The notes under the pieces were generated by a model. The model was given only the letters and a program-made list of their open reading frames with translations, made no database searches and was not told the origin of the DNA. Source: an uncultured Bacteroidia bacterium (GTDB lineage: Bacteria > Bacteroidota > Bacteroidia > Bacteroidales > UBA932). Taken from it: a stretch of 42,775 nucleotides of DNA. Numbering within the stretch: the first letter of the stretch is position 1; each line of letters starts with the position of its first letter. The position numbers were made by a program, and so were the translations under genes. Shown in pieces: positions 2,530 through 28,412 of this stretch. Where the stretch lies: the NCBI GenBank assembly GCA_902784965.1, contig CACZWU010000012.1, positions 1 to 42,775 of the forward strand, in the 5' to 3' direction.

Positions 2530-2541
2530 GAGCGAAGCGGT

Positions 2542-2596
2542 GCGGGTGGTTTTTGGAGCCGCGAGCATTTTTCGCGAGCGGGACAAAAACCAGAGC
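2542..2596. repeat. Dispersed palindromic repeat, copy 1
   Basis: A 55-base block that recurs at 31431-31486 with a single one-base difference in length. Arms GGTTTTTG (2548-2555) and CAAAAACC (2584-2591) are perfect inverted repeats of 8 bp. The interior holds CGCGAGC as a direct repeat around ATTTTT. GTCCGG at 2515-2520 and CCGGAC at 2606-2611 could form an outer pair. It lies in the untranslated leader of malQ. Confidence 0.8.
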
Positions 2597-2638
2597 CAGC
2601 GGAACCCGGACCCGAGAGATAACAAAAGACAACAATAT

Positions 2639-12193: not shown

Positions 12194-12257
12194 ACGATAA
12201 AGATAAGGATAAATCATCAAAAAAGGTCAAAAAGATATAACAATTGTAAAAAATGAT

Positions 12258-12265
12258 TACTTTTG
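12258..12265 (+). promoter_or_regulatory. -7 promoter element for the MFS-susCDE unit
   Basis: TACTTTTG matches TAnnTTTG and lies 36 bases before the chosen MFS start at 12301. It overlaps the region just after the alternative ATG at 12253, which would then not be transcribed, so it supports the later start. No TTTG is found at the -33 distance. A weaker minus-strand candidate for the divergent hydrolase operon (TATCTTTT, 12230-12237) lies in the same 107 bp gap. Confidence 0.5.
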
Positions 12266-12300
12266 AAGGTTTAATATGGCATGATGCCCCTGTATTGATT

Positions 12301-13635
12301 ATGCAAAAGAAAAAACTAACTTTCGGCCAGATGTTCAACCTGAGTTTCGGGTTCTTCGGCGTGCAGATCGCTTATGCGCTGCAAAGTGCCAACATCAGCC
12401 GGATTTTTGCTACGCTGGGCGCCGACCCGCACCAGCTCAGCTTTTTCTGGATCCTCCCACCGCTGATGGGAATGATTGTCCAGCCCCTGATCGGACACTG
12501 GTCCGACCGCACCTGGAACCGGATGGGACGCCGCAAGCCCTATTTGCTGATCGGCGCCCTCGTCGCCGTGCTGGTGATGATCTTCCTGCCCAATGCCGGC
12601 AGCCTGAATTTCAGCCAGCGGCTGTTCCTCGGCCTCAACGGCGCCATGTGGTTCGGCCTTTTCTCCCTCATTTTCCTTGACACGTCCATCAACGTGGCCA
12701 TGCAGCCCTTCAAGATGATGGTGGGCGACATGGTGGGCGAGGAGCAGAAGACCCAGGCCTATTCCATCCAGAGTTTCCTGTGCAATGCCGGTTCACTCGT
12801 GGGCTACCTGTTCCCCATTTTCTTCACCTGGATCGGTATCGCCAATACGGCGCCGGAAGGCGTGATCCCCGATTCGGTCATCTGGTCTTTCTACGCCGGA
12901 GCGGCCATCCTCATCCTCTGTGTGCTCTATACTTTTATTAAGATAAAGGAGATGCCGCCGAAAGAGTATGCCGAATTCCACGGCATTGACCCCCAGAAAC
13001 AGCAGGAAGGCAGCAAAGAGGGTTTTGTCAAGTTGCTGTCACAGGCGCCGAAGGCGTTCTGGACGGTGGGCCTCGTGCAGTTCTTCTGCTGGGCGGCCTT
13101 CCTTTTCATGTGGACCTATTCGAACGGCGCCATTGCAAAGAATGTCTGGGGTACCACCGACGTGGCGTCGGCGGGCTATCAGGATGCCGGCAACTGGGTG
13201 GGCGTGGTGTTCGCCGTACAGGCTGTCGGCTCGCTTTGCTGGGCGTTGTTCATTCCGAAATTCAAGACCGACCGGGCTGCCTACATCACTTCGCTGGTGA
13301 TCGGCGCCATCGGTTTCATCTCGATCCTGTTCGTCCACGACAAGTTCCTGCTCTTCGTCTCGTATTTCCTGATCGGCTTCGCATGGGCCGCCATGCTGGC
13401 CTTGCCGTTCTCGATCCTGACCAACGCGTTGAAGGGTACTTCCCATATGGGTGAATACCTGGGCCTGTTCAACTGCACCATCTGCCTGCCGCAGATCGTG
13501 GCCGCCGCCCTGGGCGGATTCCTGCTCAAGGCCATCGGCGGTTCGCAGGCCGGCATGCTGGCCATCGCCGGCGTTCTGCTTCTTTGCGGCGCCGTCGCGG
13601 TGCTCGGCATCCAGGAATTGAAACACAAACAATAA
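12301..13635 (+). CDS. MFS transporter of the SLC45-like sugar/maltodextrin type
   Basis: An inner-membrane carrier of 444 residues with 12 predicted helices. The loop between helices 2 and 3 carries the signature GHWSDRTWNRMGRRKP, as in SLC45/sucrose-maltose transporters, and a second conserved loop lies near residue 240. Relatives occur upstream of susCD in alpha-glucan loci of many Bacteroidota and carry malto-oligosaccharides or glucose into the cytoplasm. The start at 12301 (MQKKKLTFGQ) is preferred; an earlier in-frame ATG at 12253 lies just before the -7 element. susC begins 27 bases after the stop with no terminator between, so the carrier and susCDE are probably one unit. Substrate is inferred from context. 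Confidence 0.88.
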   Translation: MQKKKLTFGQMFNLSFGFFGVQIAYALQSANISRIFATLGADPHQLSFFWILPPLMGMIVQPLIGHWSDRTWNRMGRRKPYLLIGALVAVLVMIFLPNAGSLNFSQRLFLGLNGAMWFGLFSLIFLDTSINVAMQPFKMMVGDMVGEEQKTQAYSIQSFLCNAGSLVGYLFPIFFTWIGIANTAPEGVIPDSVIWSFYAGAAILILCVLYTFIKIKEMPPKEYAEFHGIDPQKQQEGSKEGFVKLLSQAPKAFWTVGLVQFFCWAAFLFMWTYSNGAIAKNVWGTTDVASAGYQDAGNWVGVVFAVQAVGSLCWALFIPKFKTDRAAYITSLVIGAIGFISILFVHDKFLLFVSYFLIGFAWAAMLALPFSILTNALKGTSHMGEYLGLFNCTICLPQIVAAALGGFLLKAIGGSQAGMLAIAGVLLLCGAVAVLGIQELKHKQ

Positions 13636-13662
13636 CCTAAATATTTAATCAAAAGCAGTTTT

Positions 13663-16644
13663 ATGAAGAAGATTCTCACTCTGCTCTCGATCCTGGCACT
13701 GACCTCTGCCACCGCCTTTGCGCAATATACCGCCAAAGGTGTGGTGGAAGACAAGTTCGGTCCGGTGATCGGGGCCGCTGTTATCCAAGTGGGTACCAGC
13801 AACGGCGTGCAGACGGATCTGGACGGAGCGTGGACGCTCAACGTCCCTTCTGCCAGCACGCTGATCGAAATCAGCTTCCTGGGTCTGAGAACCGTGACGA
13901 TCGAAGCCGGCAAGGCCGGCAAAGTCATGCTGGAGGATGACCAGGAGTTCCTCGACGAAGTGGTCGTCATCGGTTATGGTACGGTCAAGAAGAGCGACAT
14001 GACCGGTTCGATCTCCACCGTCAAGGCCGATGAAATCAACAAAGGTGTCATCACCACGCCTGCCGACCTGCTGCGCGGCAAGAGCGCCGGTGTGGTCGTC
14101 ACCTCGGGATCCGGTATGCCGGGTTCCGGTGCGACGATCCGTATCCGTGGCGGCTCCTCGCTCAACGCCTCGAACGACCCGCTCATCGTCATCGACGGCC
14201 TGCCGGTGTCGAACGACGGCATCAGCGGCATGTCGGATCCGCTTTCTTCCATCAACCCGGAAGACATTGAGAGCTTTACCGTGCTGAAAGACGCTTCGGC
14301 CACCGCCATCTACGGTTCCCGTGCCTCCAACGGTGTGATCGTGATCACCACGAAGAAAGGCTCGAAGTCGGGCAGCAACGTTCCGCACGTAGCGGCCGAC
14401 TTCACGGCTTCCGTCAACACCATCGCCAAGTACAACAACTTGCTCGACAAAGACGGCATCGTGAACCTGATCCGCGATTTCTACGGCGAGAACTCCACCG
14501 CCGAGGCCAACCTCGGTATCTATGAAAACGGTGTACAGAAACTCTACGACACCGACTGGCAGCGCGAGATCTACCAGATCGCCCCGACCTTCGACGGCAA
14601 CCTGAGCGTTACGGGCCGCATCGGCGAGAACTTCCCGTACCGTGTTTCGGGCGGTTTTACCGAGCAGAACGGTACGCTCCGCGGTTCGAAAATGGACCGT
14701 GCCACGGCTTCCATCAACCTGTCGCCGACCTTCTTCAAGAAACACCTGACCGTCAACCTCAACGGAAAGGGTACGTATGCATTCAACGAGTATGCGAACC
14801 AGGATGCCATCGGCGCAGCCAACCACTACGATCCGACCAAGCCGGTGTTCAACTCTGCTCCGGGCTACAACCTGAACAAGTACACCACCTGGTACGACCA
14901 GAGCGGCAACATCAATACCATGGCGACCATGAACCCGGTGGGCCTGCTCGACGCCAAGTATGACAACGCTGATGCCTACCGTTTCATCGGCAATGCGCAG
15001 ATCGACTACAAGGTCCATGGTTTCGAAGCCCTCCGCTTCAACCTCAACCTCGGTCTCGACTGGGCCAAGAGTATCGGCGTCACCGAGCTGGCCATGGGTT
15101 CCGAAGCTTCCTACCACAACACCAACCAGAGCGGCGGTGGCTCTCATACCAGTTACGACTACATGCGCCGTAACACGACCCTCGAGTTCTACGGCGACTG
15201 GAACCAGGATTTCGGCCAGCACAACGTCGACCTGATGGCTGGTTACTCCTGGCAGCACTTCTACAGCGAGAGCAACAGCACATCCTATCGTATCAGCGAC
15301 AAGGCTTCGTTGGGCGAATCGGTCGGCAAAGGTGAGCTTTACCTCCTCTCCTTCTTTGGCCGTGCCAACTACTCGTTCGCCGACAGGTATCTGCTGACCG
15401 CTACGGTCCGTGCCGACGGTACCTCCCGTTTCCAGAACCATAAGTGGGGTATCTTCCCCTCTGTGGCTTTCGGCTGGAACGTCATGAACGAAAACTTCAT
15501 GAGCGGCGTGAAAGGCATGAGCACCCTGAAGCTGCGTCTCTCCTGGGGCCAGACCGGCCAGCAGGAAGTGGGCGGCTACTATGACACTTTCGCCACGTTC
15601 CTCAACAACCAGCTCGGTTCGTATTACTACTTCGGCGACCAGCTGATCACTCCGATCTCCGCGCTGGGTTACAGCGCCGACCTCCGCTGGGAGACCACGA
15701 CGACCTACAACATCGGTTTCGACCTCGGTTTCTGGAACGACCGGTTGACGGCCGCCATCGACCTGTACAAGCGTGACACCAAGGACATTCTCAACTACAT
15801 CCCGGTGCCGGCGCTTTCCAACCTGACCAACTACCTGAACACCAACATCGGTAACATGACCAACTACGGTGTCGAGCTCGACGTGAACGCGATTCTCGTG
15901 GAGAAGAAAGACATGGGCTGGACCTTCGGTTTCAACGTGGCCTACAACCACAACGAGATCACCAAGCTGACGGCTTCCGACGAGAACGCCACGGGCGTTG
16001 AGACGGGCGGCATCTCGGGTGGTACCGGCAACAACGTGCAGATGTTCCAGGTGGGCTATCCGATGCGCACCTTCAACCTCTACAAGCAGGTGTATGACGA
16101 ATACGGCCGGCCGGTCAACGGCGTCTATGTTGACATGAACGGCGACGGCCAGATCACGGCCGACGACAAGTATATGGACAAACACCTCAAGGCCAGTCCG
16201 GACGTCACCTTCGGCTTCAACACCAACTTCCACTGGAGGAACTGGACGGCGGCCCTCTCCGGCCACGCCTCCATCGGCAACTGGGTCTACAACAACGTGG
16301 CGTCCGACACCGAGATGCTCGCCGACCTGTGGACCAACAGCTTCATCAGCAACCGCGTCGCTTCGGCTCCGTTCTCGATGTTCTCCCAGGCACAGTATCT
16401 CTCCGACTACTATCTGCAGAACGGCTCGTTCCTGAAGCTCGACAACTTCACGCTGGGCTACACTTTCCCGAAACTCTTCAAGGTGGCCGAGAACAACGCT
16501 TCCCTCAATATCTTCGGTACCGTGCAGAACATCTGCACCATCACGAAGTACACCGGTATCGACCCTGAGGTCTTCAACGGCATCGATGGCACGGTCTATC
16601 CGCGTCCGCGTACCTTCACCCTCGGTCTCAAGTTTAACTTCTAA
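13663..16644 (+). CDS. susC: SusC-like TonB-dependent outer-membrane oligosaccharide transporter
   Basis: A 993-residue outer-membrane transporter with a signal peptide (MKKILTLLSILALTSATAFA). A carboxypeptidase-D-regulatory-like domain follows at about residues 22-95 (GVVEDKFGPVIGAAVIQVGT). The TonB box region EVVVIGYGTVKKSDMTG comes next, then the plug and a 22-strand barrel. The C-terminus ends in an aromatic strand (RPRTFTLGLKFNF) as required for barrel insertion. It imports malto-oligosaccharides bound by SusD with energy from TonB-ExbBD, which is not in this window. It is followed by susD after 15 bases to the chosen ATG. Codon use is strongly biased: in-frame TTA, CTA and TCA codons are absent. 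The substrate is inferred from the susG and GH13 neighbours. Confidence 0.95.
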   Translation: MKKILTLLSILALTSATAFAQYTAKGVVEDKFGPVIGAAVIQVGTSNGVQTDLDGAWTLNVPSASTLIEISFLGLRTVTIEAGKAGKVMLEDDQEFLDEVVVIGYGTVKKSDMTGSISTVKADEINKGVITTPADLLRGKSAGVVVTSGSGMPGSGATIRIRGGSSLNASNDPLIVIDGLPVSNDGISGMSDPLSSINPEDIESFTVLKDASATAIYGSRASNGVIVITTKKGSKSGSNVPHVAADFTASVNTIAKYNNLLDKDGIVNLIRDFYGENSTAEANLGIYENGVQKLYDTDWQREIYQIAPTFDGNLSVTGRIGENFPYRVSGGFTEQNGTLRGSKMDRATASINLSPTFFKKHLTVNLNGKGTYAFNEYANQDAIGAANHYDPTKPVFNSAPGYNLNKYTTWYDQSGNINTMATMNPVGLLDAKYDNADAYRFIGNAQIDYKVHGFEALRFNLNLGLDWAKSIGVTELAMGSEASYHNTNQSGGGSHTSYDYMRRNTTLEFYGDWNQDFGQHNVDLMAGYSWQHFYSESNSTSYRISDKASLGESVGKGELYLLSFFGRANYSFADRYLLTATVRADGTSRFQNHKWGIFPSVAFGWNVMNENFMSGVKGMSTLKLRLSWGQTGQQEVGGYYDTFATFLNNQLGSYYYFGDQLITPISALGYSADLRWETTTTYNIGFDLGFWNDRLTAAIDLYKRDTKDILNYIPVPALSNLTNYLNTNIGNMTNYGVELDVNAILVEKKDMGWTFGFNVAYNHNEITKLTASDENATGVETGGISGGTGNNVQMFQVGYPMRTFNLYKQVYDEYGRPVNGVYVDMNGDGQITADDKYMDKHLKASPDVTFGFNTNFHWRNWTAALSGHASIGNWVYNNVASDTEMLADLWTNSFISNRVASAPFSMFSQAQYLSDYYLQNGSFLKLDNFTLGYTFPKLFKVAENNASLNIFGTVQNICTITKYTGIDPEVFNGIDGTVYPRPRTFTLGLKFNF

Positions 16645-16659
16645 AACAGGGTGTGCAAT

Positions 16660-18207
16660 ATGAAAACGATCAAATATTTCTTCAGCATACTTGCAGTCTC
16701 CGCCCTTCTGGCCTCCTGTATCGGCGACCTGAACGTCACTCCGATCGACCCGAATATCAATACGGCGGACAAGGCCCTCGTGGACGAGGCTTCCTTTACT
16801 GCGTACCTGGCCGGTGTCTACACAGGCTTCGCCACCTCCGGCTACTACGGAGCCAACGGTTCTGCCTCGATCTCCGGTCTCGACGGCGGTGCGTCGCAGT
16901 ACATCCGCGGCCTGTATCACCACAGCGAGCTGACCACCGACGAATCGGTCTGCGGCTGGAACGACCAGACCATCAAGAACTTCCACTGGATGAACTGGAC
17001 CACCGACGATACCTTCATCTATGCGTTCTACTCCCGCATCTTCATGCAGGTGTCGGCCGCGAACGAATTCATCCGTGAGCTGCAAGCCTCCGACCTGGCC
17101 TTCGCCAACCGCGAAGAATACATCGCTGAGGCCCGCGTGCTCCGCGCCATCGCTTACTACCACGCTATCGACAACTTCGGCAATGTGCCGTTCGCTGATG
17201 AGACGTCCGTGGTGGGTTCTTTCCCCAGCCAGATCAAGCGCGCCGACCTGTTCGAATGGATGGAAGCCGAGCTGAAAGACCTCATCAACAACAGCGCCCT
17301 GGCCGCGCCGCGTGGCAATGGCTTTGCCCGTGCCGACAAGGGTGTGGCCAAGTTCCTGCTCGCCAAACTCTACCTGAACGCAGAAGTCTACACGGGCACG
17401 CCCCGCTGGGATGACTGCGCGGATGTCCTGAAAGACCTGATGGACGACGGCTACAGCCTTCATACTACCTCCGTCGGTGACTTCTCGCCGTACCAGGAAC
17501 TCTTCCTGGCCGACAACAACCGCTGCACCGACGAGATCATCTTCGCCATCGAGCAGGACGGTGTGAACACCACCAGCTACGGTGCGACCAACTACCTGAT
17601 CTTCGCCTCTACCGGCGGTGAGATGGATCCGGAAGAAATGGGTATCTCCTCCGGCTGGGGCGGTCTCCGCACTACGCCTGAATTCTATCATCTGTTCACC
17701 TCCGGTGACGCCCGCAACCTCTTCTACACGAAGACCCAGCAGGAGAGCATCGACGATATCGGCGAATTCTCCAACGGCTACGCCTTCATGAAGTTCCGCA
17801 ACCGGACGAGTGACGGCGGCTATGGCAAGGAGATGGGTTTTGTCGACACCGACTTCCCGATGATGCGCTACGCCGACGTGCTGCTGATGGCAGCCGAATG
17901 TGCCGCACGCGGTGCCAAGATCGATGGTCTTACCGCTTTCAACCAGGTGCGTGCCCGCGCCGGCGTCCCCGCCTCCAACGGACTCTCCCTGAATGAAATC
18001 ATTAACGAACGCGGCCGCGAACTCTACCAGGAGTGCTGGCGCCGTAGCGACCTCATCCGTTTCGGCCTGTTCACTTCCGGTTACAACTGGCAGTGGAAGG
18101 GCAACGTGAAGGAAGGCCGGGACGTCGAATCGTACCGAGCCCTCTTCCCGATTCCTGACTCCGACCGGCTGGCCAACACGGGTCTCGAACAGAACCCCGG
18201 TTATTAA
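16660..18207 (+). CDS. susD: SusD-like starch-binding lipoprotein (RagB/SusD family)
   Basis: A 515-residue outer-membrane lipoprotein with signal and lipobox LLASC (Cys at about residue 21), followed by the SusD helical fold. Segments close to Bacteroides thetaiotaomicron SusD from memory include INDL-like CIGDLNVTPIDPN, the TPR helix FGRADKA-like GFARADKGVAKFLLAKLYLN, and the C-terminal WRRSDLIRFGLFTS. It sits over SusC and delivers malto-oligosaccharides to the pore. The ATG at 16660 is preferred over an in-frame GTG at 16651 because it starts the signal peptide. The gene lies 15 bases downstream of susC and 15 upstream of the SusE/F gene. Confidence 0.95.
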   Translation: MKTIKYFFSILAVSALLASCIGDLNVTPIDPNINTADKALVDEASFTAYLAGVYTGFATSGYYGANGSASISGLDGGASQYIRGLYHHSELTTDESVCGWNDQTIKNFHWMNWTTDDTFIYAFYSRIFMQVSAANEFIRELQASDLAFANREEYIAEARVLRAIAYYHAIDNFGNVPFADETSVVGSFPSQIKRADLFEWMEAELKDLINNSALAAPRGNGFARADKGVAKFLLAKLYLNAEVYTGTPRWDDCADVLKDLMDDGYSLHTTSVGDFSPYQELFLADNNRCTDEIIFAIEQDGVNTTSYGATNYLIFASTGGEMDPEEMGISSGWGGLRTTPEFYHLFTSGDARNLFYTKTQQESIDDIGEFSNGYAFMKFRNRTSDGGYGKEMGFVDTDFPMMRYADVLLMAAECAARGAKIDGLTAFNQVRARAGVPASNGLSLNEIINERGRELYQECWRRSDLIRFGLFTSGYNWQWKGNVKEGRDVESYRALFPIPDSDRLANTGLEQNPGY

Positions 18208-18222
18208 TAGGAGGACATTGTC

Positions 18223-21090
18223 ATGAAAAAGATATTTTCCATTCTCTTTGTCAGTGTGATTGCCTTGATGGCAGTCTCCTGCTATCCGGAAGACCTGGCG
18301 GTGTTTGACACTTCCAAGGCCACGGCTCCCGTGCTGGGCTCCTATGAGATGGGCGACAAGGCCGTCTCGGCCTCTTTCACTCCGGGTGCCTTCAACCAGG
18401 ATTTCAACAAGAACGTGCAGCCGAACCACTTCTTCGTGATGACGCAGGTGGACGGAAAGAACGTGAGCAAGGCCGTTACCTCGTCCGTCAAGGACGGTGT
18501 GCTGACCGCCAGCAAGAACAGCATCAACAATACCCTGATCGCCATGGGCTATACCGAGGGCGACGTTGTGAACTTCGTGCTGCGCGTCCGCGCTTCGATG
18601 CAGACCAATGCGGGCGACAATGGCCGCAACGGCTATGTCGATTCCCAGGGCGCCATCGAAGTGAGCGGCTATGAAATCGTGTTCCCGAAAGGCAGCCCGT
18701 ATCAGGAATACACCGAGACCAGTCCGTTCAGCGTGATCGGCTCGCTCTCCGCTTACGAGATCTCCTGGGACGGTGACCTCGAAATGTGGATGACGCCCGA
18801 TGGCAACCAGCATGTGGCCAAGTGCGTCACCATCAACGCAGGTGACGAGTTCAAGTTCCGCAAGGACCAGGATTGGGGCGTCAACTATGGTGGCGACTTC
18901 GGCAGCCTGGACAACGCCTTTACGGTGAGCCAGGATGGCCCGAACATCGTAGCGCCGGCCGGTCTCTATGACCTCTGGCTCGACCTCGCTGCCGGTACCG
19001 CCACCCTGACCGAGGCCTACCAGGCTTATCCCGACCACAAGGAAGCCAGCAACTGGAGCATCATCGGCTCGCTGTCCGAATACGGCATCAGCTGGGATGG
19101 CGACCTTCCGATGATAACCGACGGTGTGACCCACGTCGCGCAGGGTGTCAAGTTGACCGCAGCCGACGAATTCAAGTTCCGTCAGGACAAGGATTGGACC
19201 GTGAATCTGGGTGGTGACTACGGCAGCCTCGGCGCCGACTTCGCAGTGACGCAGGATGGTCCGAACATCAAGGTCGGCGACGGTGTCTTCGACCTGATCG
19301 TCAATCCGGGCGCCGGTACGGCCCAGGTCGTCGAGACCCTCGGCGGCGGTGTTTCCGGCAAGATCGGCGGCGACGAACCGACGCCTCCGGGTCCGGAACC
19401 GGAACCTGTGACCGGCTGGAACATTATCGGCCTGAACGGTGATTGGGAGAACGATGTTCTCGCCACGCAGGATGGCAGCAAGTGGACGGCTTACATCACC
19501 GCCGACAACGCTACCGAGTTCAAGTGGCGCAAGGATGCCGGCTGGGCCGAGAACTACGGCGGTGTCATGGCAGCCTTCGGTGAACCGTTCGCAGCCGTGG
19601 CCGATGGCGACAACATCAAGGTCGACGCCGGCTTCTACAAGGTGGTCCTGGATACCGAAGCCCTCACCATTACCGTATACAACGACTTCACGGTCTGGAG
19701 CCTCATCGGCGACTTCAACAGCTGGAGCGGCGACGTGGACATGGTGGAAGTCGATGGCAAGTGGGTAGCCGAGGACGTGCAGCTCACGCCGGGTTGGAAG
19801 CTTCGCAAGAACCACGACTGGGCTGAGAACCGTGGCGGTGCCTTCGTGGCATTGGACGAACCGTTTGCCGTCACCAACGGCGGTGACAACATTGACTGCG
19901 GTACCGGTAAGTTTACTGTGATTTACGATCCTGAGAACGAGACTGTTACCGTGAAGGAAGGCACGGTCTGGAGCCTCATCGGCGACTTTAACGACTGGGG
20001 CGGTGACGTGGACATGACCCTTGAGGGTGGTCTTTGGATCGCTGAGGGCGTAGACCTCACCGGCGGCTGGAAGATTCGCAAGAACCACGACTGGGCCGAG
20101 AACCGTGGCGGTGCGTTCGTCGCTTTCGGCGAGCCTTTCGCTGTGGTGAACAATGGTGACAACATCAACTGCGGTGATGGCAAGTTCACCGTGACGTACA
20201 ATCCTGCCGAAGAAACCATCACTGTCGAGGCCGCCTCCTACGGATGGTCGGTCATCGGCGTGAATGGTGACTGGAACACCGACTATGATATGATCGAAAC
20301 GGCACCCGGCATCTGGATGAGCGGTCCGATCGATGTCACCAGCGGTGACTGGAAGATCCGCTACGACCACGGCTGGGATGTCAACCGTGGCGCTGCTACG
20401 CCCGAGAACTTCCAGGTCGGCCAGTTCCTTGGCGCTGCTCCCGGTGGCCCGAACATCGCGCTTACCGGCACAATCCGCGTGGTCTATAACGCCAACAACG
20501 AAACCGTCGGTACCCTTGGATGGGGCGTGGTCGGCAGCATCGCGTCGATCCCCGGCTTCAACTGGAACAATGACCTTCCGATGAACTGCTTCCAGGATGG
20601 CGGATGGGCGAGCGTTCCTGTTTACCTGACCAAGGACGATCAGTTCAAGATCCGTTGGCAGGGTGGCTGGGATCTCAACTACGGTGGCACTATGGTCGCC
20701 GTCGAAGAACCGTTCGATGCCGTGGATGGTGGTGACAACATCAAAGTGGCGGAAGACGGCTGGTATGTTCTGGCTTTTGATGCCAATGAAAAGAAGATTG
20801 CGCTGACCCACCAATTCTGGAGTCTGATCGGTGAATTCAACAACTGGATTGCCGATGTGTTTATGATGTACAGGGGCAACGGTGAGTGGGTTGCCTACAA
20901 CCAGACCCTTCCTGGCGAATGGAAGATCCGTCAGGGTGCGGGATGGGATGTGAACCGGGGTGGTACCTTCGTCGAGGTGGGAACACCCTTCGACGCCGTC
21001 CCCGGTGGCGATAACATCAATGTCGGCGATCTCTCCGGTTTCACGGTCGTCTACAACCAGGAGACCGAAAAGATTACGGTTGTCAAGTAA
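18223..21090 (+). CDS. SusE/SusF-type starch-binding lipoprotein with eight tandem modules
   Basis: A 955-residue surface lipoprotein with lipobox MAVSC (Cys20), an N-terminal Ig-like SusE domain (about residues 30-160) and eight tandem copies of a 91-99 residue starch-binding-type module. The modules start near residues 167, 277, 398, 491, 582, 674, 766 and 865. Each contains a strand WS-I-G, a WDGDL or W..DVDM loop, then WKIRK-W-NYGG and a GDNI turn. A proline-rich linker (PTPPGPEPEP) follows module 2. SusE has two and SusF three such modules in Bacteroides thetaiotaomicron, so eight is exceptional. Modules 4 and 5 are almost identical, with a period of 273 bases, showing a recent internal duplication. 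The likely role is multivalent capture of starch on the cell surface beside SusC and SusD. Calling it susE or susF would be arbitrary. Confidence 0.93.
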   Translation: MKKIFSILFVSVIALMAVSCYPEDLAVFDTSKATAPVLGSYEMGDKAVSASFTPGAFNQDFNKNVQPNHFFVMTQVDGKNVSKAVTSSVKDGVLTASKNSINNTLIAMGYTEGDVVNFVLRVRASMQTNAGDNGRNGYVDSQGAIEVSGYEIVFPKGSPYQEYTETSPFSVIGSLSAYEISWDGDLEMWMTPDGNQHVAKCVTINAGDEFKFRKDQDWGVNYGGDFGSLDNAFTVSQDGPNIVAPAGLYDLWLDLAAGTATLTEAYQAYPDHKEASNWSIIGSLSEYGISWDGDLPMITDGVTHVAQGVKLTAADEFKFRQDKDWTVNLGGDYGSLGADFAVTQDGPNIKVGDGVFDLIVNPGAGTAQVVETLGGGVSGKIGGDEPTPPGPEPEPVTGWNIIGLNGDWENDVLATQDGSKWTAYITADNATEFKWRKDAGWAENYGGVMAAFGEPFAAVADGDNIKVDAGFYKVVLDTEALTITVYNDFTVWSLIGDFNSWSGDVDMVEVDGKWVAEDVQLTPGWKLRKNHDWAENRGGAFVALDEPFAVTNGGDNIDCGTGKFTVIYDPENETVTVKEGTVWSLIGDFNDWGGDVDMTLEGGLWIAEGVDLTGGWKIRKNHDWAENRGGAFVAFGEPFAVVNNGDNINCGDGKFTVTYNPAEETITVEAASYGWSVIGVNGDWNTDYDMIETAPGIWMSGPIDVTSGDWKIRYDHGWDVNRGAATPENFQVGQFLGAAPGGPNIALTGTIRVVYNANNETVGTLGWGVVGSIASIPGFNWNNDLPMNCFQDGGWASVPVYLTKDDQFKIRWQGGWDLNYGGTMVAVEEPFDAVDGGDNIKVAEDGWYVLAFDANEKKIALTHQFWSLIGEFNNWIADVFMMYRGNGEWVAYNQTLPGEWKIRQGAGWDVNRGGTFVEVGTPFDAVPGGDNINVGDLSGFTVVYNQETEKITVVK
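18721..21087 (+). repeat. Eight tandem starch-binding module repeats in the SusE/F gene
   Basis: DNA starts of the eight modules are 18721, 19051, 19414, 19693, 19966, 20242, 20518 and 20815. Modules 4 and 5 share long nucleotide identity, for example CACGGTCTGGAGCCTCATCG at 19689 and 19962, giving an exact 273-base (91-codon) period. The other modules align only at protein level. A TTPEP-like Pro-rich linker separates modules 2 and 3. Modules 1 and 2 share the IGSLS-Y-ISWDGDL opening; modules 4, 5 and 8 share WSLIG-FN-W. Confidence 0.9.
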
Positions 21091-21111
21091 CGGAAATCGT
21101 TATGAACAACG

Positions 21112-21145
21112 GATGCCCGGGTCGAAAGGCCCGGGCATCTTTTTT
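21112..21145 (+). terminator. Strong intrinsic terminator after susE/F
   Basis: A perfect 10 bp stem: GATGCCCGGG (21112-21121) and CCCGGGCATC (21130-21139), with loop TCGAAAGG, followed by six T residues at 21140-21145. It lies 21 bases after the SusE/F stop. The U-tract is immediately followed by, and shares its final Ts with, the TTTG box of the susG promoter. Confidence 0.95.
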
Positions 21146-21174
21146 GTAAAAATCATAACATTTTCGTATATTTG
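21143..21174 (+). promoter_or_regulatory. Promoter of the susG operon
   Basis: TTTG at 21143-21146 (-33) and TATATTTG at 21167-21174 (-7), separated by 20 bases, give a full match to the Bacteroidota primary-sigma consensus TTTG-N19-21-TAnnTTTG. Transcription would begin near 21179-21181, which is at the ATG of susG (21181). The mRNA may therefore have no leader. The -33 box shares the last three T bases of the upstream terminator. Confidence 0.8.
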
Positions 21175-21180
21175 AAGGTT

Positions 21181-23151
21181 ATGATGAAAATGAAACGAAT
21201 CTATCTGATACTGGCAGTGGTGTCTGCGACGCTGCTGCTGACGGCGTGCCCGCACATCACGCCTCCCGGCCCCGACGACCCGGATACGCCGGTCACCCCC
21301 GATGATTCCTGGCGGAACCAGGCCTCAAAGACCAAACTCTCCGGCATCACCTATCAGGTCAACGTCTACAGCTTCGCCGACAGCGACGGCGACGGGTGGG
21401 GCGACATCCGCGGTATCACCCAGCACCTCGACTATCTCGACAGCATCGGGGCCACCGCCCTCTGGCTCTCGCCCATCCACGAAGCCATGTCGTACCACGG
21501 TTACAATGTGAACGACTATTATTCCGTGAGCAGCAATCTGGGCACGGAAGACGACCTGAAGGACCTGATCTCCCAGGCCAAAGCCCGGAATATCGACATC
21601 TATCTCGATTTCGTGCTCAACCACTCCGGCAAGGACAACGCCTGGTTCAAGCAGGCCATCGCCGACCCGTCCAGCAAATACGGAAGCTATTATATCTTTG
21701 AAGACAAGCCTGGCGAATCCGTCACCGGCGGGATGGGTGGCTGGAACTCGACGTCCAGCGGCAGTATCGGCTACAAGGGCCTGCTGCATTTCAAGCTCGA
21801 TGTCTCGAATCCTTCCCAACCCCAGCTTACCATCACGCAGGCAAGCGGAAACGCGCAGAGCGGAAACACGGACACTTCTGTCAAGTGGTTTATCTACGAG
21901 AACAACGCCATCCGGATGTACAAGACCGGGAACAATATCTTCGAAATCACGCTCTCCATCAACAACGACTGGGGCGTCCTGGTAAAGGATGATCCCACGC
22001 AGTGGGGGGATCATAAATGGGGAGCCCGTGCGAACGATAAGCTCGTCGAATTCGGCAAGCCCAAGACCCTGGTCAAAGGCGACGCTGCCAATGACCTCAT
22101 CTTCGGGGGTACTTCCGCCCAGTATTGGGCCAGTTTCGACGCTTCGATGCCCGACCTGTATTTCGGCCCCTACGCCAAGGCTTCCGACTCGGAGACCTTC
22201 AAGGACCTGGCTTCGGCGGCTGACAAGTGGATCAATATGGGAGTGGCCGGCCTGCGCCTCGACGCCGTGATCTGGATTTACCAGAACAACACGGCAGCCA
22301 ACGTTGCGTTCCTCAAGCAGTGGTACGACCGCTGCAATTCGACCTGGAAATCCCATGGAGGCAAGGGCGACTTCTACATGGTTGGCGAGGCCTGGTGCGA
22401 CAACGCCGAGAAGATGGCGCCCTACTATGAAGGCCTGCCGTCGAACTTCAATTTCTACTACTGGTACACTCTCAAGGACCGTATCGGAAAGGGAAAGGGC
22501 GACGATTTTGCCACGACTGTCATCTATTTCCAGAACCAGTTCCGCAAGTATCGCACGGATTTCATCGATGCCATCAAACTCTCCAACCACGACGAGGACC
22601 GGGCCGCCAACGACCTGGGCCGCGACATCGCCAAGGAGAAACTGGCCGCCGCCGTGTTGCTCACTTCACCTGGCAAACCCTATGTCTACCAGGGCGAAGA
22701 ACTGGGCTATTGGGGCAACAAGGGCAAGGGCGACGAATATGTCCGTGCGCCCATCAAATGGACGCGCGGCGGCAGCGTTGCTTCCGCAGCCCTGAGCGGC
22801 AAGGTGGACAACAACATGCTAACGGCAGACATCTCGGTAGAGGCACAGGAGCAGAACGCGGCGTCCGTGTTGCGGGTCTACCGCGATTTCGCCAAGGCAC
22901 GCAATGGATGGAAGGCCCTGGCACAAGGCCAGATCGAGGCCGTTTCCAGCCCCAACAGCGCCGTGGCGATGTGGAAGATGAGCCATGAGGGGCAGACGGT
23001 ACTGGTGGTTCACAACTTTGGTTCCGGTGCTCCGGTACTCCCGCTCAGCAGCTACAAGACCGACAAGCTGATTGTTTCGAACGGCGCGGTGACGGTTTCC
23101 AACGGTGCTGTGGCGCTGGGCGCCTATGCTTCTGCGGTATTTTTGCAATAA
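21181..23151 (+). CDS. susG: SusG-like outer-membrane alpha-amylase (GH13) with CBM58-like insertion
   Basis: A 656-residue lipoprotein (lipobox LLTAC, Cys about residue 22), a surface endo-amylase of the GH13 family that cuts alpha-1,4 bonds in starch. The catalytic triad is Asp361 (GLRLDAVIW), Glu403 (MVGEAWCD) and Asp471 (LSNHDEDR). The domain-B region is enlarged by about 140 residues (about 175-320: GLLHFKLDVSN to GGTSAQYW), at the same place as the CBM58 starch-binding insertion of Bacteroides SusG. Many stretches agree with that protein from memory, such as YSFADSDGDGWGDI and LSPIHEAMSYHGY. ATG codons at 21181, 21184 and 21190 are all possible starts; the in-frame TTG at 21172 is ruled out because it lies in the promoter. 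The next GH13 gene starts 10 bases after the stop. Confidence 0.93.
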   Translation: MMKMKRIYLILAVVSATLLLTACPHITPPGPDDPDTPVTPDDSWRNQASKTKLSGITYQVNVYSFADSDGDGWGDIRGITQHLDYLDSIGATALWLSPIHEAMSYHGYNVNDYYSVSSNLGTEDDLKDLISQAKARNIDIYLDFVLNHSGKDNAWFKQAIADPSSKYGSYYIFEDKPGESVTGGMGGWNSTSSGSIGYKGLLHFKLDVSNPSQPQLTITQASGNAQSGNTDTSVKWFIYENNAIRMYKTGNNIFEITLSINNDWGVLVKDDPTQWGDHKWGARANDKLVEFGKPKTLVKGDAANDLIFGGTSAQYWASFDASMPDLYFGPYAKASDSETFKDLASAADKWINMGVAGLRLDAVIWIYQNNTAANVAFLKQWYDRCNSTWKSHGGKGDFYMVGEAWCDNAEKMAPYYEGLPSNFNFYYWYTLKDRIGKGKGDDFATTVIYFQNQFRKYRTDFIDAIKLSNHDEDRAANDLGRDIAKEKLAAAVLLTSPGKPYVYQGEELGYWGNKGKGDEYVRAPIKWTRGGSVASAALSGKVDNNMLTADISVEAQEQNAASVLRVYRDFAKARNGWKALAQGQIEAVSSPNSAVAMWKMSHEGQTVLVVHNFGSGAPVLPLSSYKTDKLIVSNGAVTVSNGAVALGAYASAVFLQ

Positions 23152-23161
23152 ATCAGATATC

Positions 23162-25201
23162 ATGCGTAACGCATTTCTTTTCTTTACGATACTTCTGGCG
23201 GCGGGATGCGGCCACGTGAAAGTGACGCCTTCTCCGCTTTTTGACGAAGGTCCGCTGTCCGCGCCCTGTCTGCTGGAGCAGGCCGCCAACACCGTGATCC
23301 TCCGCGATTATTTCCCGACACTTCCTTCGATGGATACGCTGGAAGTGACGGCGACAGCAGCGGATCCCTGGCTCCGGTACATGGATATCCAGACGGCCGA
23401 TGGACAGAAGGGTGCGCTGGTGCTCAAGAACCGTCTCCCCGAAAAATTGGCAGGAGCAGATCCTGCCAGGGTTCCGTTCATCACCACGGCTCCCGTGCCC
23501 GGCAAGAGCGACCGGTTCTATATCCTGATCGAGCCTGAAGCGGACGACGTGCTGGTGCTCTGGCAGAACACCGTCCTCGACAAAGAGCACGGAATCCGCG
23601 TGATCGACCGCAGCCGACTCGAAATCACCGTACCCCGGAACGCCCGCAAGATGGAGCGCTCCTATATCCGCGCCTATGCCGCCAATGCCTGCGGCATCGG
23701 CAACGACATCCTCGTTCCCCTCCGCTATGGCAAGGTTATGCGCGATCCGAAAGACCTCCGGCGCAGCGACAAGCATGCACTGGTACTCTACTCGCTGATG
23801 ATCGACCGCTTCGTGGACGGCCGAACCGACAACGATATGCCGCTCAACTCTCCCCTCGTGAATCCCAAGGTAGACTATTGGGGCGGCGACATCGCCGGCG
23901 TGACCAAGACCCTCGAAAGCGGCTATTTCGACAGTCTGGGCGTGAATACCATCTGGCTTTCGCCCATCACGCAGAACCCCTATGACGCCTGGGGACAGAT
24001 CCACGATCCCGAAACGAAGTTCAGCGGATACCACGGCTACTGGCCTTATTATGCTACGGCCGTCGATGTCCGCTACGGCACCGAAGCCGAGCTTCGCCAG
24101 CTGCTCGACGAGGCCCACGCCGACAACAAGAACGTCATCCTGGACTATGTGTCGAATCATATGCACATCCAGAGTCCCACGCTGACGGAGCATCCCGACT
24201 GGACCACACCCTCCGACACGCCGGACGGACGCCCGAACCGCCAGCTCTACGACGAATACCGCCTGACCACCTGGTTCGACGACCATATCCCGACGCTCGA
24301 CCTGGAGCGGGCGGACATCTGCGCCCAGCTCACCGACTCAGCCCTGTACTGGATGCAGCACTTCGACTTCGACGGTTTCCGCCACGATGCCACCAAGCAC
24401 GTGCCCGAGCAGTACTGGCGGATGCTGACCCGCAAGCTCTACGACAGCCTGCCCGGCCGCAGTTTCTACCAGATCGGCGAGACTTACGGTTCCACTGCGC
24501 TCATCAATTCGTATGTGAAACCCGGTATGCAGGATGCCCAGTTCGACTTCAACGTTTATGATACCTATGTGTGGGCCACCACGCGGCCGGCGGGCTCTTT
24601 CGAGGGGCTGGCCGACCGTCTCAGAGAAGATATGGCTGTCTATGGCTCGCACCACCTGATGGGCAACATCACCGGCAACCACGACCGCTCCCGCTATATC
24701 TGCCTGGCCAGCGGCGACGTGAGCCAGGACGAAGACCAGAAACTGGCCGGTTGGCACCGCGACATCAAGGTAACCGATCCCGTCGGCTACGACTACCTGA
24801 AGATGCTCCACGCGCTGAATTTCACGATTCCGGGCGTGCCTTGCATCTACTATGGCGACGAATATGGGCAGCCGGGCGCCAACGACCCCGACAACCGGCG
24901 CTGGATGCAGTTCGACGGGTTGACGAAGGACGAGCAGGAGACCCTGGAGGAGACGCAGTTCCTGGCCCGTCTGCACAATACGTCGATGCCGCTGATCTAC
25001 GGCGACTACAAGCTGCTTTACGCCGACACCGACGTGCTGGCCTACAGCCGCAGCTACATGGGCGAAACCACGGTGGTCGTACTCAACAAGAGCCGTCAAC
25101 CCCGCAAGGTCGACCTCACCCTGCCTTGTGGCTTGGCCTGCAACGGGCAGAACCGCTTGACCGTGGAAGTCGCCCCCGTTCATTATGCGATCATTCAATA
25201 A
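23162..25201 (+). CDS. Lipoprotein GH13 alpha-amylase-family enzyme
   Basis: A 679-residue GH13 lipoprotein (lipobox LLAAGC). Residues about 25-195 form an N-terminal beta-rich domain without clear catalytic motifs, possibly for glucan binding. The barrel follows with LYSLMIDRFVDGR, catalytic Asp409 (GFRHDATKH), Glu440 (IGETYG) and Asp508 (TGNHDRSR), and the C-terminal sandwich after residue 590. The sequence WGGDIAGV and the split DRF region point to the GH13 cyclomaltodextrinase/amylase group. It is the second gene of the susG operon (10 bases after susG, 9 before the next GH13 gene). The start at 23162 is chosen because it begins the signal peptide; an upstream extension of the frame overlaps susG. 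Product specificity is unknown. Confidence 0.88.
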   Translation: MRNAFLFFTILLAAGCGHVKVTPSPLFDEGPLSAPCLLEQAANTVILRDYFPTLPSMDTLEVTATAADPWLRYMDIQTADGQKGALVLKNRLPEKLAGADPARVPFITTAPVPGKSDRFYILIEPEADDVLVLWQNTVLDKEHGIRVIDRSRLEITVPRNARKMERSYIRAYAANACGIGNDILVPLRYGKVMRDPKDLRRSDKHALVLYSLMIDRFVDGRTDNDMPLNSPLVNPKVDYWGGDIAGVTKTLESGYFDSLGVNTIWLSPITQNPYDAWGQIHDPETKFSGYHGYWPYYATAVDVRYGTEAELRQLLDEAHADNKNVILDYVSNHMHIQSPTLTEHPDWTTPSDTPDGRPNRQLYDEYRLTTWFDDHIPTLDLERADICAQLTDSALYWMQHFDFDGFRHDATKHVPEQYWRMLTRKLYDSLPGRSFYQIGETYGSTALINSYVKPGMQDAQFDFNVYDTYVWATTRPAGSFEGLADRLREDMAVYGSHHLMGNITGNHDRSRYICLASGDVSQDEDQKLAGWHRDIKVTDPVGYDYLKMLHALNFTIPGVPCIYYGDEYGQPGANDPDNRRWMQFDGLTKDEQETLEETQFLARLHNTSMPLIYGDYKLLYADTDVLAYSRSYMGETTVVVLNKSRQPRKVDLTLPCGLACNGQNRLTVEVAPVHYAIIQ

Positions 25202-25210
25202 TCCGAACAT

Positions 25211-26581
25211 ATGAAAAAGATTCTGAGTTTCCTGCTTCTTTTCTGCTGCCTGGTGGCCTGCAAGAAGGCCGCTCCCGAGGTAAATGTGACCCATGTGATC
25301 CACCCCGATTGGGCGCAGCACGCCGTGATCTATCAGGTCAACGTGCGCCAGTTCTCCCCCGAGGGTACCTTTGCCGCCATTGAGCCGCAGCTCGACCGTC
25401 TCGCTGAACTGGGCGTCGACATCCTTTGGCTGATGCCCATCCATCCCATCGGCGTCGAGGGCCGCAAGGGCACGCTCGGCAGCTACTATGCCGTGCAGGA
25501 CTATTGTGCCGTGAACCCTGAGTTCGGCACGCTGGAAGACTTCGACCATTTCCTGGCTGCCGCCCACGGAAAGGGCTTCAAGGTGATTCTCGACTGGGTG
25601 GCCAACCATACCGGTCGTGACCATGCCTGGACGCGCGAGCACCGCGACTGGTATCATCTCGACAAGGACGGCAACCTGGCCACGCAATACGACTGGACCG
25701 ACATCGCCCACCTCGATTACGTGAACCACCCCGAAGTCTACGACGCCATGGAGGCGCAGATGCAGTTCTGGATCGACCGCGGCGTGGACGGTTTCCGCTG
25801 CGACGTGGCGAGCGAAGTGCCCCGGGACTTCTGGGACAAGGCTTTCGCCGATTTCCGGGCCCAGCGCCCCGAGGGCCTCTTCTTCCTGGCCGAGGCCGAA
25901 ACGCCGGCCCTGCAGGAAGATGCCTTTGACGCGTATTACGCCTGGCGGCAGATGCACCTGTGGTACGAGATGGCCGCCGGCAAGAAGAACGCCAACGACC
26001 TGGCCGATTTCTATGTGAACTACGAAAAGGAGGTCGGCATGCCGGCCGGTACCCTCGCGATGAACTTCATCTCCAACCATGACCAGAATTCCTGGTCTGG
26101 CACGAACCTGGAGCTGTACGGACCGTATCTCAGGGAATTTACCGTCCTGAGCTTCATGCTCCCGGGCATCCCGATGCTCTACAACGGTGATGAGGTGTGC
26201 CTGGGCAAACGCCTGGAATTCTTCGAGAAAGACCCGATCGACTGGAGCCGCGACCCGCTGGAGATGACCAAGCTCTACAAGGAGCTCATCGCTCTGCGCG
26301 ACCTGCACGCCTGCCTGTGGGCCTCGCCCTGGGGCGGTTCGATGGCCGTTCTTCCGACCGACCATCCCGACCAGGTGTTCGCATTCGAGCGGGAGGAAGA
26401 GGGCGACATGTGCCTGGCGATGTTCAATTTCTCCGGCGAAGAGGTGTCTTTCAAGGTGGAGAACCATCTGGTGACGACCGACAGCGAATTTACCTTGCCG
26501 GCCTACGGCTATCACATTATCTTCAGCGTCGGCGACTGTTTCGGCGACTGCGATGAAAGCGAATTTGAAAATGAAGACTAA
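25211..26581 (+). CDS. Lipoprotein GH13 alpha-amylase, compact type
   Basis: A 456-residue GH13 enzyme with a lipoprotein signal (lipobox LVAC, Cys17) and almost no N-terminal accessory domain. Catalytic residues are Asp198 (GFRCDVAS), Glu228 (LAEAE) and Asp291 (SNHDQNSW). The sequence begins the barrel with AVIYQVNVRQFSPEGTF and ends with a short C-terminal sandwich and a Cys/Asp/Glu-rich tail (CFGDCDESEFENED). Its compact form resembles alpha-amylases that act on short malto-oligosaccharides. The following GH13 gene overlaps the 3' end by 11 bases, so translation is probably coupled. Confidence 0.9.
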   Translation: MKKILSFLLLFCCLVACKKAAPEVNVTHVIHPDWAQHAVIYQVNVRQFSPEGTFAAIEPQLDRLAELGVDILWLMPIHPIGVEGRKGTLGSYYAVQDYCAVNPEFGTLEDFDHFLAAAHGKGFKVILDWVANHTGRDHAWTREHRDWYHLDKDGNLATQYDWTDIAHLDYVNHPEVYDAMEAQMQFWIDRGVDGFRCDVASEVPRDFWDKAFADFRAQRPEGLFFLAEAETPALQEDAFDAYYAWRQMHLWYEMAAGKKNANDLADFYVNYEKEVGMPAGTLAMNFISNHDQNSWSGTNLELYGPYLREFTVLSFMLPGIPMLYNGDEVCLGKRLEFFEKDPIDWSRDPLEMTKLYKELIALRDLHACLWASPWGGSMAVLPTDHPDQVFAFEREEEGDMCLAMFNFSGEEVSFKVENHLVTTDSEFTLPAYGYHIIFSVGDCFGDCDESEFENED

Positions 26582-28412
26582 AATCCTGCTGCTGTGTGCG
26601 GCGCTGCTGAGTATGACGACGCTCCGGGCGGAAAAGATTGACAGGGTAGAGCCTCCTTGCTGGTGGGTCGGGATGGAGACGGATCTCCAGCTGATGATCC
26701 ACGGCGACCGCCTTGCCGGTGCCACGGTATCGGTCGACGCCTCTGTCAAAGGCCTTTCGATCGGCAAGGTCACGTCGGCCGACAACCCGAACTACCTGTT
26801 CGTGGAAGTGAAGGTCTCGAACCGGCTGGACCCGGATATCTACGCCTTCAATGTCCTGACGCCCGACGGCCGTCAGTTCAGTTTCGACTATCCGTTTTAC
26901 AAGCGCCGCGATGGATCGGCCAAGCGCGAATCTTTCGGCCCGGCCGATGTGGTGTACTTGCTGATGCCCGACCGTTTCGCCAACGGCGACCGGTCGAACG
27001 ATTCCGTGAAGGAAGCGGCTGAAAAGGCCGATCCGACGAACCTGGGCGGCCGCCATGGCGGTGACATTCAGGGTATCATCGATCACCTCGACGACATCGC
27101 GTCGCTCGGCGTGACCACCATCTGGCCCACGCCGCTGACCTTCGACAACGAAAAGGCATATTCCTACCATGGCTATGCCTGTGCCGACTACTACCGCATC
27201 GACCCGCGCTACGGCACCAACGAACTCTATCGCTCCTTTGTGGAGAAAGCCCACGCCAAGGGCCTGAAGGTCATCATGGACATGGTGCCGAACCATTGCG
27301 GAACGGCCCACTGGTGGATGAAGGACCTGCCTTCGCAAACCTGGATCAACTATCCGGAGAACCTCAAGCGGGGCGGCGACAAACTCATCCGCACCAACGC
27401 CGCGATGACCACCCACAGCGACCCGCATGCCGCCTCGATCGACAAGGAAAGCTGCATCAAGGGCTGGTTCGATACGACGATGCCCGACATGAACATGGCC
27501 GATCCGCTCGTGCGGCATTACCTGGAGCAGATGGCCGTCTGGTGGGTGGAGTACGCCGACCTCGACGGCTTGCGCGTGGATACGTTCCCGTATTCCGACA
27601 AGGAAGGCATCGCCGCCTGGACCAAAGCCATCCGCAAAGAGTACAAGAAGCTCAACATCGTGGGCGAGGTGTGGTTCGGCGACGTGGCTTCCTGTGCCTA
27701 CTGGGAGGGCGTCAAGCAGAAAGACGGCTACAACTCCAACCTGCCGTCCGTGATGGACTTCCCGCTGATGTTCAATGTCCTGTCGGCGCTTTCCAAGCAG
27801 GGCACGTCGTGGGAGCCGAGCATGGTATGGGTCTACAACTCCCTGGCGCTCGACCGCCTCTACGACGACCCTTCCGACATCCTGATTTTCGTGGGTAACC
27901 ACGATACGGCGCGCCTGGCCCACGAGTTGGGTGGCGATCCGGAAAAGATCAAGATGGCCTATGCGCTGCTGGCCACCATGCGTGGCGTTCCGCAACTCTA
28001 CTATGGGGATGAATACGGCCTGCAAAGTGCCGACGGCACGGTAGGCCACTCCCAGGAGCGCGTGGATATGCCCTGGGGCAAGTTTACGGAAGAACAGAAG
28101 GCCCTGCGCAGGTATGTGGCCAACCTCTTTGACTGGCGCCAGGATTCCAAGGCCGTGGCAGCGGGCGATTTCATCCATTTCCGTCCCGATGCAGCGAATG
28201 TGTACGTCTATTTCCGGACGGTGAAAGGGGAGGCCGTCATGACCATCCTCAATGCGGGCACGGAAGAATATTCGGTCGATTGGCCGCATTTCTCGGAAAT
28301 AACCGCTAAATTTGCGGGGAAAGGAGTGAACGTGATGACTGGCGAGCGGATCAAGGTGAGCACCAAGTATGTCGTCGAGCCCGGCACCGCTGCTATCCTT
28401 GAATTTAAATAA
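26571..28412 (+). CDS. susA: SusA-like neopullulanase/cyclomaltodextrinase (GH13)
   Basis: A 613-residue protein with a Sec signal peptide (MKTKILLLCAALLSMTTLRA), an N-terminal cyclomaltodextrinase-type beta domain (about residues 20-130) and a GH13 barrel. Catalytic residues are Asp337 (GLRVDTFPYSD), Glu366 (VGEVWFG) and Asp445 (VGNHDTAR). The tract ADVVYLLMPDRFANGD and the domain order match SusA/neopullulanases, which cleave oligosaccharides in the periplasm. The absence of a lipobox supports a periplasmic location. The ATG at 26571 is preferred to 26553 for the signal peptide; both overlap the upstream gene. Assignment to SusA rests on architecture and context. Confidence 0.88.
   Translation: MKTKILLLCAALLSMTTLRAEKIDRVEPPCWWVGMETDLQLMIHGDRLAGATVSVDASVKGLSIGKVTSADNPNYLFVEVKVSNRLDPDIYAFNVLTPDGRQFSFDYPFYKRRDGSAKRESFGPADVVYLLMPDRFANGDRSNDSVKEAAEKADPTNLGGRHGGDIQGIIDHLDDIASLGVTTIWPTPLTFDNEKAYSYHGYACADYYRIDPRYGTNELYRSFVEKAHAKGLKVIMDMVPNHCGTAHWWMKDLPSQTWINYPENLKRGGDKLIRTNAAMTTHSDPHAASIDKESCIKGWFDTTMPDMNMADPLVRHYLEQMAVWWVEYADLDGLRVDTFPYSDKEGIAAWTKAIRKEYKKLNIVGEVWFGDVASCAYWEGVKQKDGYNSNLPSVMDFPLMFNVLSALSKQGTSWEPSMVWVYNSLALDRLYDDPSDILIFVGNHDTARLAHELGGDPEKIKMAYALLATMRGVPQLYYGDEYGLQSADGTVGHSQERVDMPWGKFTEEQKALRRYVANLFDWRQDSKAVAAGDFIHFRPDAANVYVYFRTVKGEAVMTILNAGTEEYSVDWPHFSEITAKFAGKGVNVMTGERIKVSTKYVVEPGTAAILEFK

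Follow-up and report, generated by a model that had tools for sequence, protein, structure and literature searches.

Turnover of tandem modules in a SusE/SusF-type lipoprotein, a putative starch binder, beside conserved SusC and SusD in an uncultured Bacteroidales bacterium

In a stretch of 42,775 nucleotides from an uncultured Bacteroidales bacterium (contig CACZWU010000012.1 of assembly GCA_902784965.1; hereafter the window), we analyzed the gene of a 955-residue lipoprotein with eight tandem modules that are probably of the type known from SusE and SusF, the model for starch holding by gut Bacteroidota. Of most interest here is the turnover of these modules beside conserved SusC and SusD: within one genus, a single lipoprotein carries anywhere from about four to nine of them, and these arrays form a natural valency series, in which eight itself is ordinary. 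A reading of the DNA that preceded this work, the original prediction, is partly supported as a whole. Its comparison with Bacteroides thetaiotaomicron, where SusE carries two modules and SusF three, agrees with PMC9112005.

The open reading frame (ORF) is intact, and its translation gives 955 residues from an ATG. It is laid out as follows:

18223..21090 (+): coding sequence of the 955-residue SusE/SusF-type multi-module lipoprotein (ATG start; locus position shared with relatives)
18223..18282 (+): lipoprotein signal peptide with lipobox LMAVSC and Cys20 (translation read by eye)
18286..18678 (+): N-terminal beta domain, residues 22-152 (predicted structure; no Pfam match of its own)
18721..19017 (+): module 1, residues 167-265 (alignment, leave-one-out profile)
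19051..19338 (+): module 2, residues 277-372 (alignment, leave-one-out profile)
19339..19413 (+): Gly/Pro/Glu-rich linker, residues 373-397 (composition; low predicted local confidence, pLDDT)
19414..19686 (+): module 3, residues 398-488 (alignment, leave-one-out profile)
19693..19959 (+): module 4, residues 491-579 (72% amino acid and 73% nucleotide identity with module 5)
19966..20232 (+): module 5, residues 582-670 (alignment, leave-one-out profile)
20242..20517 (+): module 6, residues 674-765 (alignment, leave-one-out profile)
20518..20814 (+): module 7, residues 766-864 (alignment, leave-one-out profile)
20815..21087 (+): module 8, residues 865-955 (alignment, leave-one-out profile)

To guard against circularity, we scored each module by a profile of the other seven, with 1000 shuffled copies of the protein as the null: The modules reached 64.5-119.9 bits, compared with 9.5 bits for the best shuffle domain (n=1000). 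The eight-module array is thereby confirmed as real and beyond chance, with the predicted starts at residues 167, 277, 398, 491, 582, 674, 766 and 865. The module bodies comprise 89-99 residues; the first two start-to-start spacings are 110 and 121 with linkers included, and modules 3-8 abut almost without linker. Around residues 373-397, the AlphaFold2 model gives pLDDT blocks of 58, 34 and 53. Pairwise identity between modules is 25-72% in protein and 43-73% in DNA, modules 4 and 5 being the closest pair and every other pair sharing 25-57% in protein. Because even these closest modules share only 73% DNA identity, the collapse of repeats during short-read assembly is unlikely to be the cause of eight rather than nine modules. 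Tandem Repeats Finder found no array at this gene, in keeping with the 43-73% DNA identity of the modules. A lipobox had likewise been predicted and is seen by eye as LMAVSC; its Cys20 is nearly invariant (at least 90%) across 12 aligned sequences, that of the window included.

Among 40 genomes of the genus, 25 (the window's included) carry modules and 15 have none at E<=0.001. For 21 of the 25, the modules were counted at the locus by two profiles, and for G016, G019, G331 and G332 they were taken as match counts; where the two profiles differed, the broader one was used, and it raised the number by one or two in G003, G007, G011, G013, G025, G026, G034 and G035. Nine modules were found in ten genomes, eight in the window's only, seven in three, six in ten, and four or five in one. 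Eight modules are thus ordinary and no outlier in the genus, which corrects the original prediction: Ten of the 25 have nine in one gene. Its caveat that homologues with routinely eight modules might already be described stood in part: Relatives routinely have long arrays, yet in the open-licence literature searched, including passages of PMC9112005, PMC10316084, PMC10076258 and PMC7618045, we found no description of a SusE/F-type protein that exceeds three modules.

Six relatives carry stretches of about 95 residues of another type, namely four six-module proteins (1016-1023 residues) as well as G002 and G032. These 'VYGIGDCFGGW...'-type stretches lie between or after the modules (L075, L078, L077, L076, L030 and L005 in G034, G026, G003, G007, G002 and G032, respectively). 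They form a separate, mutually similar type and were not counted as extra modules, because their hhalign comparison with the module profile was unconvincing (5.5 and 13.7% probability); total domain numbers can therefore exceed the module counts. Outside the genus, a 977-residue protein of the same family (G061, L063) has seven modules at a threshold of 1e-2. In six further Bacteroidales genomes (L064-L069), proteins of 1037-1147 residues carry five modules of X25 type and a further one later, and in some cases SusC/D-like or GH13-like genes lie nearby. In those inspected, the C-terminal stretch resembles a type IX sorting domain; these proteins are possibly a second, secreted design of a multi-module starch binder. 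The other proteins compared outside the genus have mostly three modules, and a few have one, two, four or five. Across a sample of the phylum, 153 of 395 genomes gave module matches; among the matches listed, the frames mostly span about 250-750 residues, and five matches fall in one 593-residue frame (G491).

The turnover becomes apparent when the array is set beside its neighbors. Of 33 loci examined, 15 yielded the full set of major facilitator superfamily (MFS) transporter gene, susC, susD and multi-module gene, and in every one of these 15 the genes stand in this order. Against 12 closer relatives, the window's genes share 82-93% identity for susC (n=11), 78-94% for susD (n=12) and 86-91% for the MFS gene (n=10); the susC genes of the more distant loci L025 and L028 share 70 and 75%. 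When the window's array was paired with those of the nine-module relatives other than G002 (nine out of ten), its modules 1, 2 and 3 paired with 1, 2 and 3 and its modules 6, 7 and 8 with 7, 8 and 9 in 9/9 cases, its modules 4 and 5 paired with the relatives' 4 or 6, and the relatives' module 5 stayed unpaired; a middle module has therefore been lost or replaced. Modules 1-2 share 66-97% identity, near the level of susD, in nine of the 12 closer relatives, yet only 42-50% in G003, G007 and G026, although SusC (89-93%) and SusD (86-94%) are close there and the N-terminal domain of G026 is 77% identical to that of the window. G034 has 74 and 86% in modules 1 and 2 and 42% in module 3. In G032, the N-terminal domain has 53% identity and a synonymous divergence (dS) of 1.35, module 1 has 97% (dS 0.45) and module 2 has 73% (dS 0.82); such dS values are noisy over about 100 codons, and one was infinite. 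N-terminal domain identity ranges over 49-77% across all 12, which amount to fewer than 12 independent cases as G033 and G036 are mutually close and so are G003 and G007.

The array varies more than SusC and SusD: The identity of 95-residue segments has a standard deviation of 9-22 in the multi-module protein, compared with 4-8 in susC, 1-10 in susD and 2-11 in the MFS protein (11 relatives, fewer for some genes), with the reservation that later array segments score lower through unequal module numbers. High variability is not unique to the array, because the two GH13 genes tested vary as well (6-15). From the sequences, the differences between arrays may be read as an exchange of modules by recombination, with rapid divergence without recombination as the alternative. 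We tentatively suggest a wider interpretation, which we hold to be possible but would not favor at even odds: Within a starch importer that is conserved in other respects, the array would be the part that shuffles fast and is open to selection; SusC, SusD and the N-terminal part would be kept while modules are exchanged, gained or lost by recombination, tuning valency or the type of starch. With a single surface glycan-binding protein (SGBP), this importer would constitute a four-component starch utilisome (SusC, SusD, SGBP and SusG), unlike the five-component system of B. thetaiotaomicron, which fits SusC poorly.

As to function, the protein is probably a glycan-binding lipoprotein of a Sus-type starch locus, of a high-valency SusE/SusF type and a putative binder of starch. 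The fold points in this direction. A full-length AlphaFold2 model, built from a 12-sequence alignment (mean pLDDT 83, predicted TM-score (pTM) 0.38), gave B. thetaiotaomicron SusF as its best Foldseek match in the PDB (4fe9, E 2.2e-10, probability 1.00), followed by the X25-2 pair of Ruminococcus bromii Sca5 (7rpy, E 1.1e-5); the third and last match below 0.001 (2vse, 5.5e-5) has a probability of 0.30 and was taken as chance. A model of residues 22-272, which cover the N-terminal domain and module 1, again matched SusF best (4.7e-6, the sole match below 0.001). These predicted structures support a fit of the modules to the SusF/X25 fold and agree with their original assignment to the SusE/SusF type. 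The N-terminal domain is predicted to consist of beta strands, mostly with high pLDDT. For the SusE-like Ig domain that had been proposed for it, the fold modelled together with module 1 is suggestive, whereas the window protein gave no Pfam match for it; the label 'SusE-like' thus depends on the fold and on relatives. Among five relatives scanned, PF14292 was matched by L031 (1.1e-9) and L021 (0.022) and by none of the other three; it was found at E<=1 in three of 12 family members, at best with 4.5e-8.

At the level of sequence, the case for SusE/SusF membership is weak from the window protein alone and strong once relatives are added. A comparison of the whole protein with Pfam and NCBIfam yielded nothing useful, the only match being Big_3 at 0.011, below cut-off; phmmer found no match among PDB sequences at E<=1, and PF22058 (X25) gave just a weak match in the window protein (module 1, 0.12). 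A profile of 120 modules, hand-picked with relatives included from the 185 that were non-redundant among 315 (65 were dropped), matched SGBPdex BT3088 (2.3e-12; 9sji/9sje), SusF (6.6e-10), Sca5 X25-2 (4.1e-6), the AMPK-beta glycogen-binding domain (0.003) and SusE (0.02). Within this wider set, 75 modules match PF16411 and 22 match PF22058 at E<=0.01.

The putative ligand contacts fit the same assignment. In Sca5X25-2b, maltotriose touches W620, K654, W661, N684 and N687 (PMC9112005), and the Trp, Lys, Trp and Asn matching W620, K654, W661 and N687 are invariant in 8/8 window modules: In the order of modules 1-8, the first Trp is W182/291/408/501/592/684/781/875, the Lys is K211/318/434/526/617/711/809/901, the second Trp is W218/325/441/533/624/718/816/908, and the Asn is N241/348/464/556/647/744/839/931. 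Lys, second Trp and Asn were set by the alignment of the 120-module profile with Sca5, and the first Trp was placed by hand where that alignment was shifted. The matching columns of the 120-module set are invariant or conserved to at least 90%, and N684 has no constant counterpart in the alignment of the eight window modules.

Several observations weigh against this assignment. PF16411 (SusF_SusE) scores the window protein at 22.1 bits with a cut-off of 27.5 and matches three of the eight single modules at E<=10, at best with 2.3e-5; a profile of the eight modules retrieved no SusE/F chain from the PDB at E<=10, and a Pfam scan of the N-terminal stretch came up empty even with a threshold of E<=10, PF14292 being absent. 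The full-length fold match leaves the orientation of the modules uncertain (pTM 0.38, root-mean-square deviation 20.8, TM-score 0.10 by query length). Furthermore, a similarly built SusE/F homologue, FjDusE (an Ig domain plus three modules), binds dextran (PMC10316084). Finally, the available genome, in which we found no other SusE/F-like gene, is 78% complete, so that a second one could be missing.

If the protein acts as a SusE/SusF-type starch binder, its N-terminal domain, two modules, flexible linker and six modules would form a stalk anchored in the outer membrane. Each beta-sandwich module would bind an alpha-1,4-glucan over a few glucose units via its two Trp and the Lys/Asn set, and many weak sites in series could hold long starch near SusG for cutting and near SusCD for import. 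We infer surface display, starch binding and avidity in this sense; one protein would then do what SusE and SusF do together in B. thetaiotaomicron, which is consistent with no second such gene having been found. The granule binding and longer reach from the cell that the original prediction proposed are more conjectural. The genus series lends itself to asking whether affinity, granule binding or growth on raw starch depends on the number of modules, and the single-SGBP locus is a place to look for a stable four-part utilisome.

Fewer than eight modules might bind, the others being spacers that lift the binders off the membrane. A spacer role has been proposed for another domain of a polysaccharide utilization locus (PMC11216935), and modules 6 and 7, at 25-39% identity to the others, belong to the most diverged; we nevertheless consider this unlikely because a pure spacer would not need contact residues, and these are kept in 8/8 modules and in columns that are invariant or conserved to at least 90% in the 120-module set. 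It seems equally improbable that adjacent modules form joint clamshell sites in the manner of R. bromii Sca5X25-2, so that helical glucan would meet about four sites of high affinity instead of eight weak ones. Sca5X25-2, the second-best fold match, holds one maltotriose between two X25 modules while single modules fail to bind (PMC9112005), and modules 3-8 of the window protein are nearly free of linkers, both in favor of such pairing. On the other hand, the modules of SusF, the best fold match, each bind maltooligosaccharides with a dissociation constant of about 300 uM (PMC9112005), and odd module numbers (seven or nine), found in 13 of the 25 module-bearing genus genomes, are ill-suited to strict pairing.

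The target might also be another alpha-glucan (glycogen, dextran or a mixture) rather than plant starch, for which SGBPdex as the best sequence-profile match, the binding of dextrans by FjDusE (PMC10316084) and the weak matches of glycogen-binding domains to both the window-module profile and the 120-module profile speak. We regard this as the least probable of the three alternatives: The locus holds GH13 enzymes, one of them of SusG type and bearing a CBM58, with a CBM20-carrying GH77 nearby, and GH66, GH31 and GH97 had no match in the 28 window ORFs scanned, to which the search for these families was confined within the genome.

Compared with known systems, the protein resembles SusF and SusE of B. 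thetaiotaomicron (4FE9, 4FCH/4FEM) in having an N-terminal domain followed by X25-type modules in tandem, a lipoprotein signal and neighbors of SusC/SusD/SusG type, and SusF is its best fold match. It differs in carrying eight modules in one chain rather than three and two in separate chains and in a sequence that falls short of the PF16411 cut-off. In B. thetaiotaomicron, the starch locus encodes five outer-membrane components, for all of which SusC is predicted to lack surface, and this raises the question of how two SusE/SusF-type proteins fit around it (PMC7618045). Closer to that two-gene arrangement are L081 and L082 (G013 and G011), in which adjacent SusE/F-like genes encode 373 residues with two modules and 856 residues with six by the broader profile. 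One SGBP per locus is shared with the dextran loci of SGBPdex (BT3088) and FjDusE (PMC7618045, PMC10316084); unlike these dextran loci, that of the window has GH13/CBM58 enzymes, and FjDusE has three modules. The X25 pairs of R. bromii Sca5/Sas20 (7RPY) have the Trp-Lys-Trp-Asn contact set in common with the window modules, and R. bromii Sca3 and Sca5 carry multiple X25 modules in one protein (PMC9112005); in contrast, Sca5 and Sas20 belong to an amylosome scaffold without SusCD and use two modules per site. Relatives in the genus share module type and locus order but differ in module number and make-up. A phage-display screen on starch reportedly recovered clones similar to Prevotella SusF_SusE-domain proteins.

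The neighboring features of the locus are:

12253..13635 (+): MFS sugar transporter, conserved part of the locus (domain scan, locus order)
13663..16644 (+): susC-like TonB-dependent transporter (TIGR04056, 740.8 bits)
16651..18207 (+): susD-like lipoprotein (PF07980, 105.4 bits; NF033071 SusD, 350 bits against a cut-off of 725)
21111..21140 (+): intrinsic-terminator-like hairpin 3' of the multi-module gene, 13 pairs and a T-run (consensus match)
21143..21174 (+): Bacteroidota-type promoter-like site TTTG-N20-TATATTTG 5' of the SusG-like gene (consensus match)
21172..23151 (+): SusG-like GH13 alpha-amylase with CBM58 and SusG C-terminal domain (PF00128 225.3, PF20756 86.8, PF23915 38.7 bits)
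23105-25201, 25211-26581 and 26553-28412 (+): three more GH13 genes (domain scan)

The GH77 4-alpha-glucanotransferase with an N-terminal CBM20 lies near the locus at 2522-4669. Between 12000 and 29000, 18 terminator-like sites were found where 13.4 are expected, the hairpin at 21111..21140 having the most pairs, and two promoter-like sites were found in the window where 0.10 are expected, by the Bacteroidota consensus. Since the listed TTG of the SusG-like gene falls inside the promoter-like site, its true start is probably further downstream. The hairpin after the multi-module gene and the promoter-like site before the amylase may therefore divide the locus into two transcription units, one of susC, susD and the multi-module gene and another of the amylase. 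In L024, L029, L075 and L076, the SusG-like gene points the opposite way to susC and susD, which fits a promoter of its own.

A minus-strand ORF of 2389 residues at 13645-20814 runs antisense to susC, susD and most of the multi-module gene. It was rejected as a gene and regarded as a by-product of codon use because it is in register with three genes without TTA, CTA and TCA: These codons account for 0 of the 153, 75 and 89 Leu and Ser codons of susC, susD and the multi-module gene, all in one frame, and are also absent from three other window genes among 18 counted. On the same strand, a serine hydrolase of beta-lactamase fold lies at 10616-12220 (PF00144, 202.7 bits); its best class C beta-lactamase model reaches 91.7 bits against a cut-off of 415, with no evidence of resistance.

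Of 12 named related records, 11 are labelled Bacteroidales or Bacteroidia and one Prevotella; four titles mention rumen, omasum or reticulum, six bear RUG codes, which stand for rumen, and two give no source. The host bacterium is thus probably from the rumen, and if the titles hold for these organisms, the arrays would bear on starch capture from feed.

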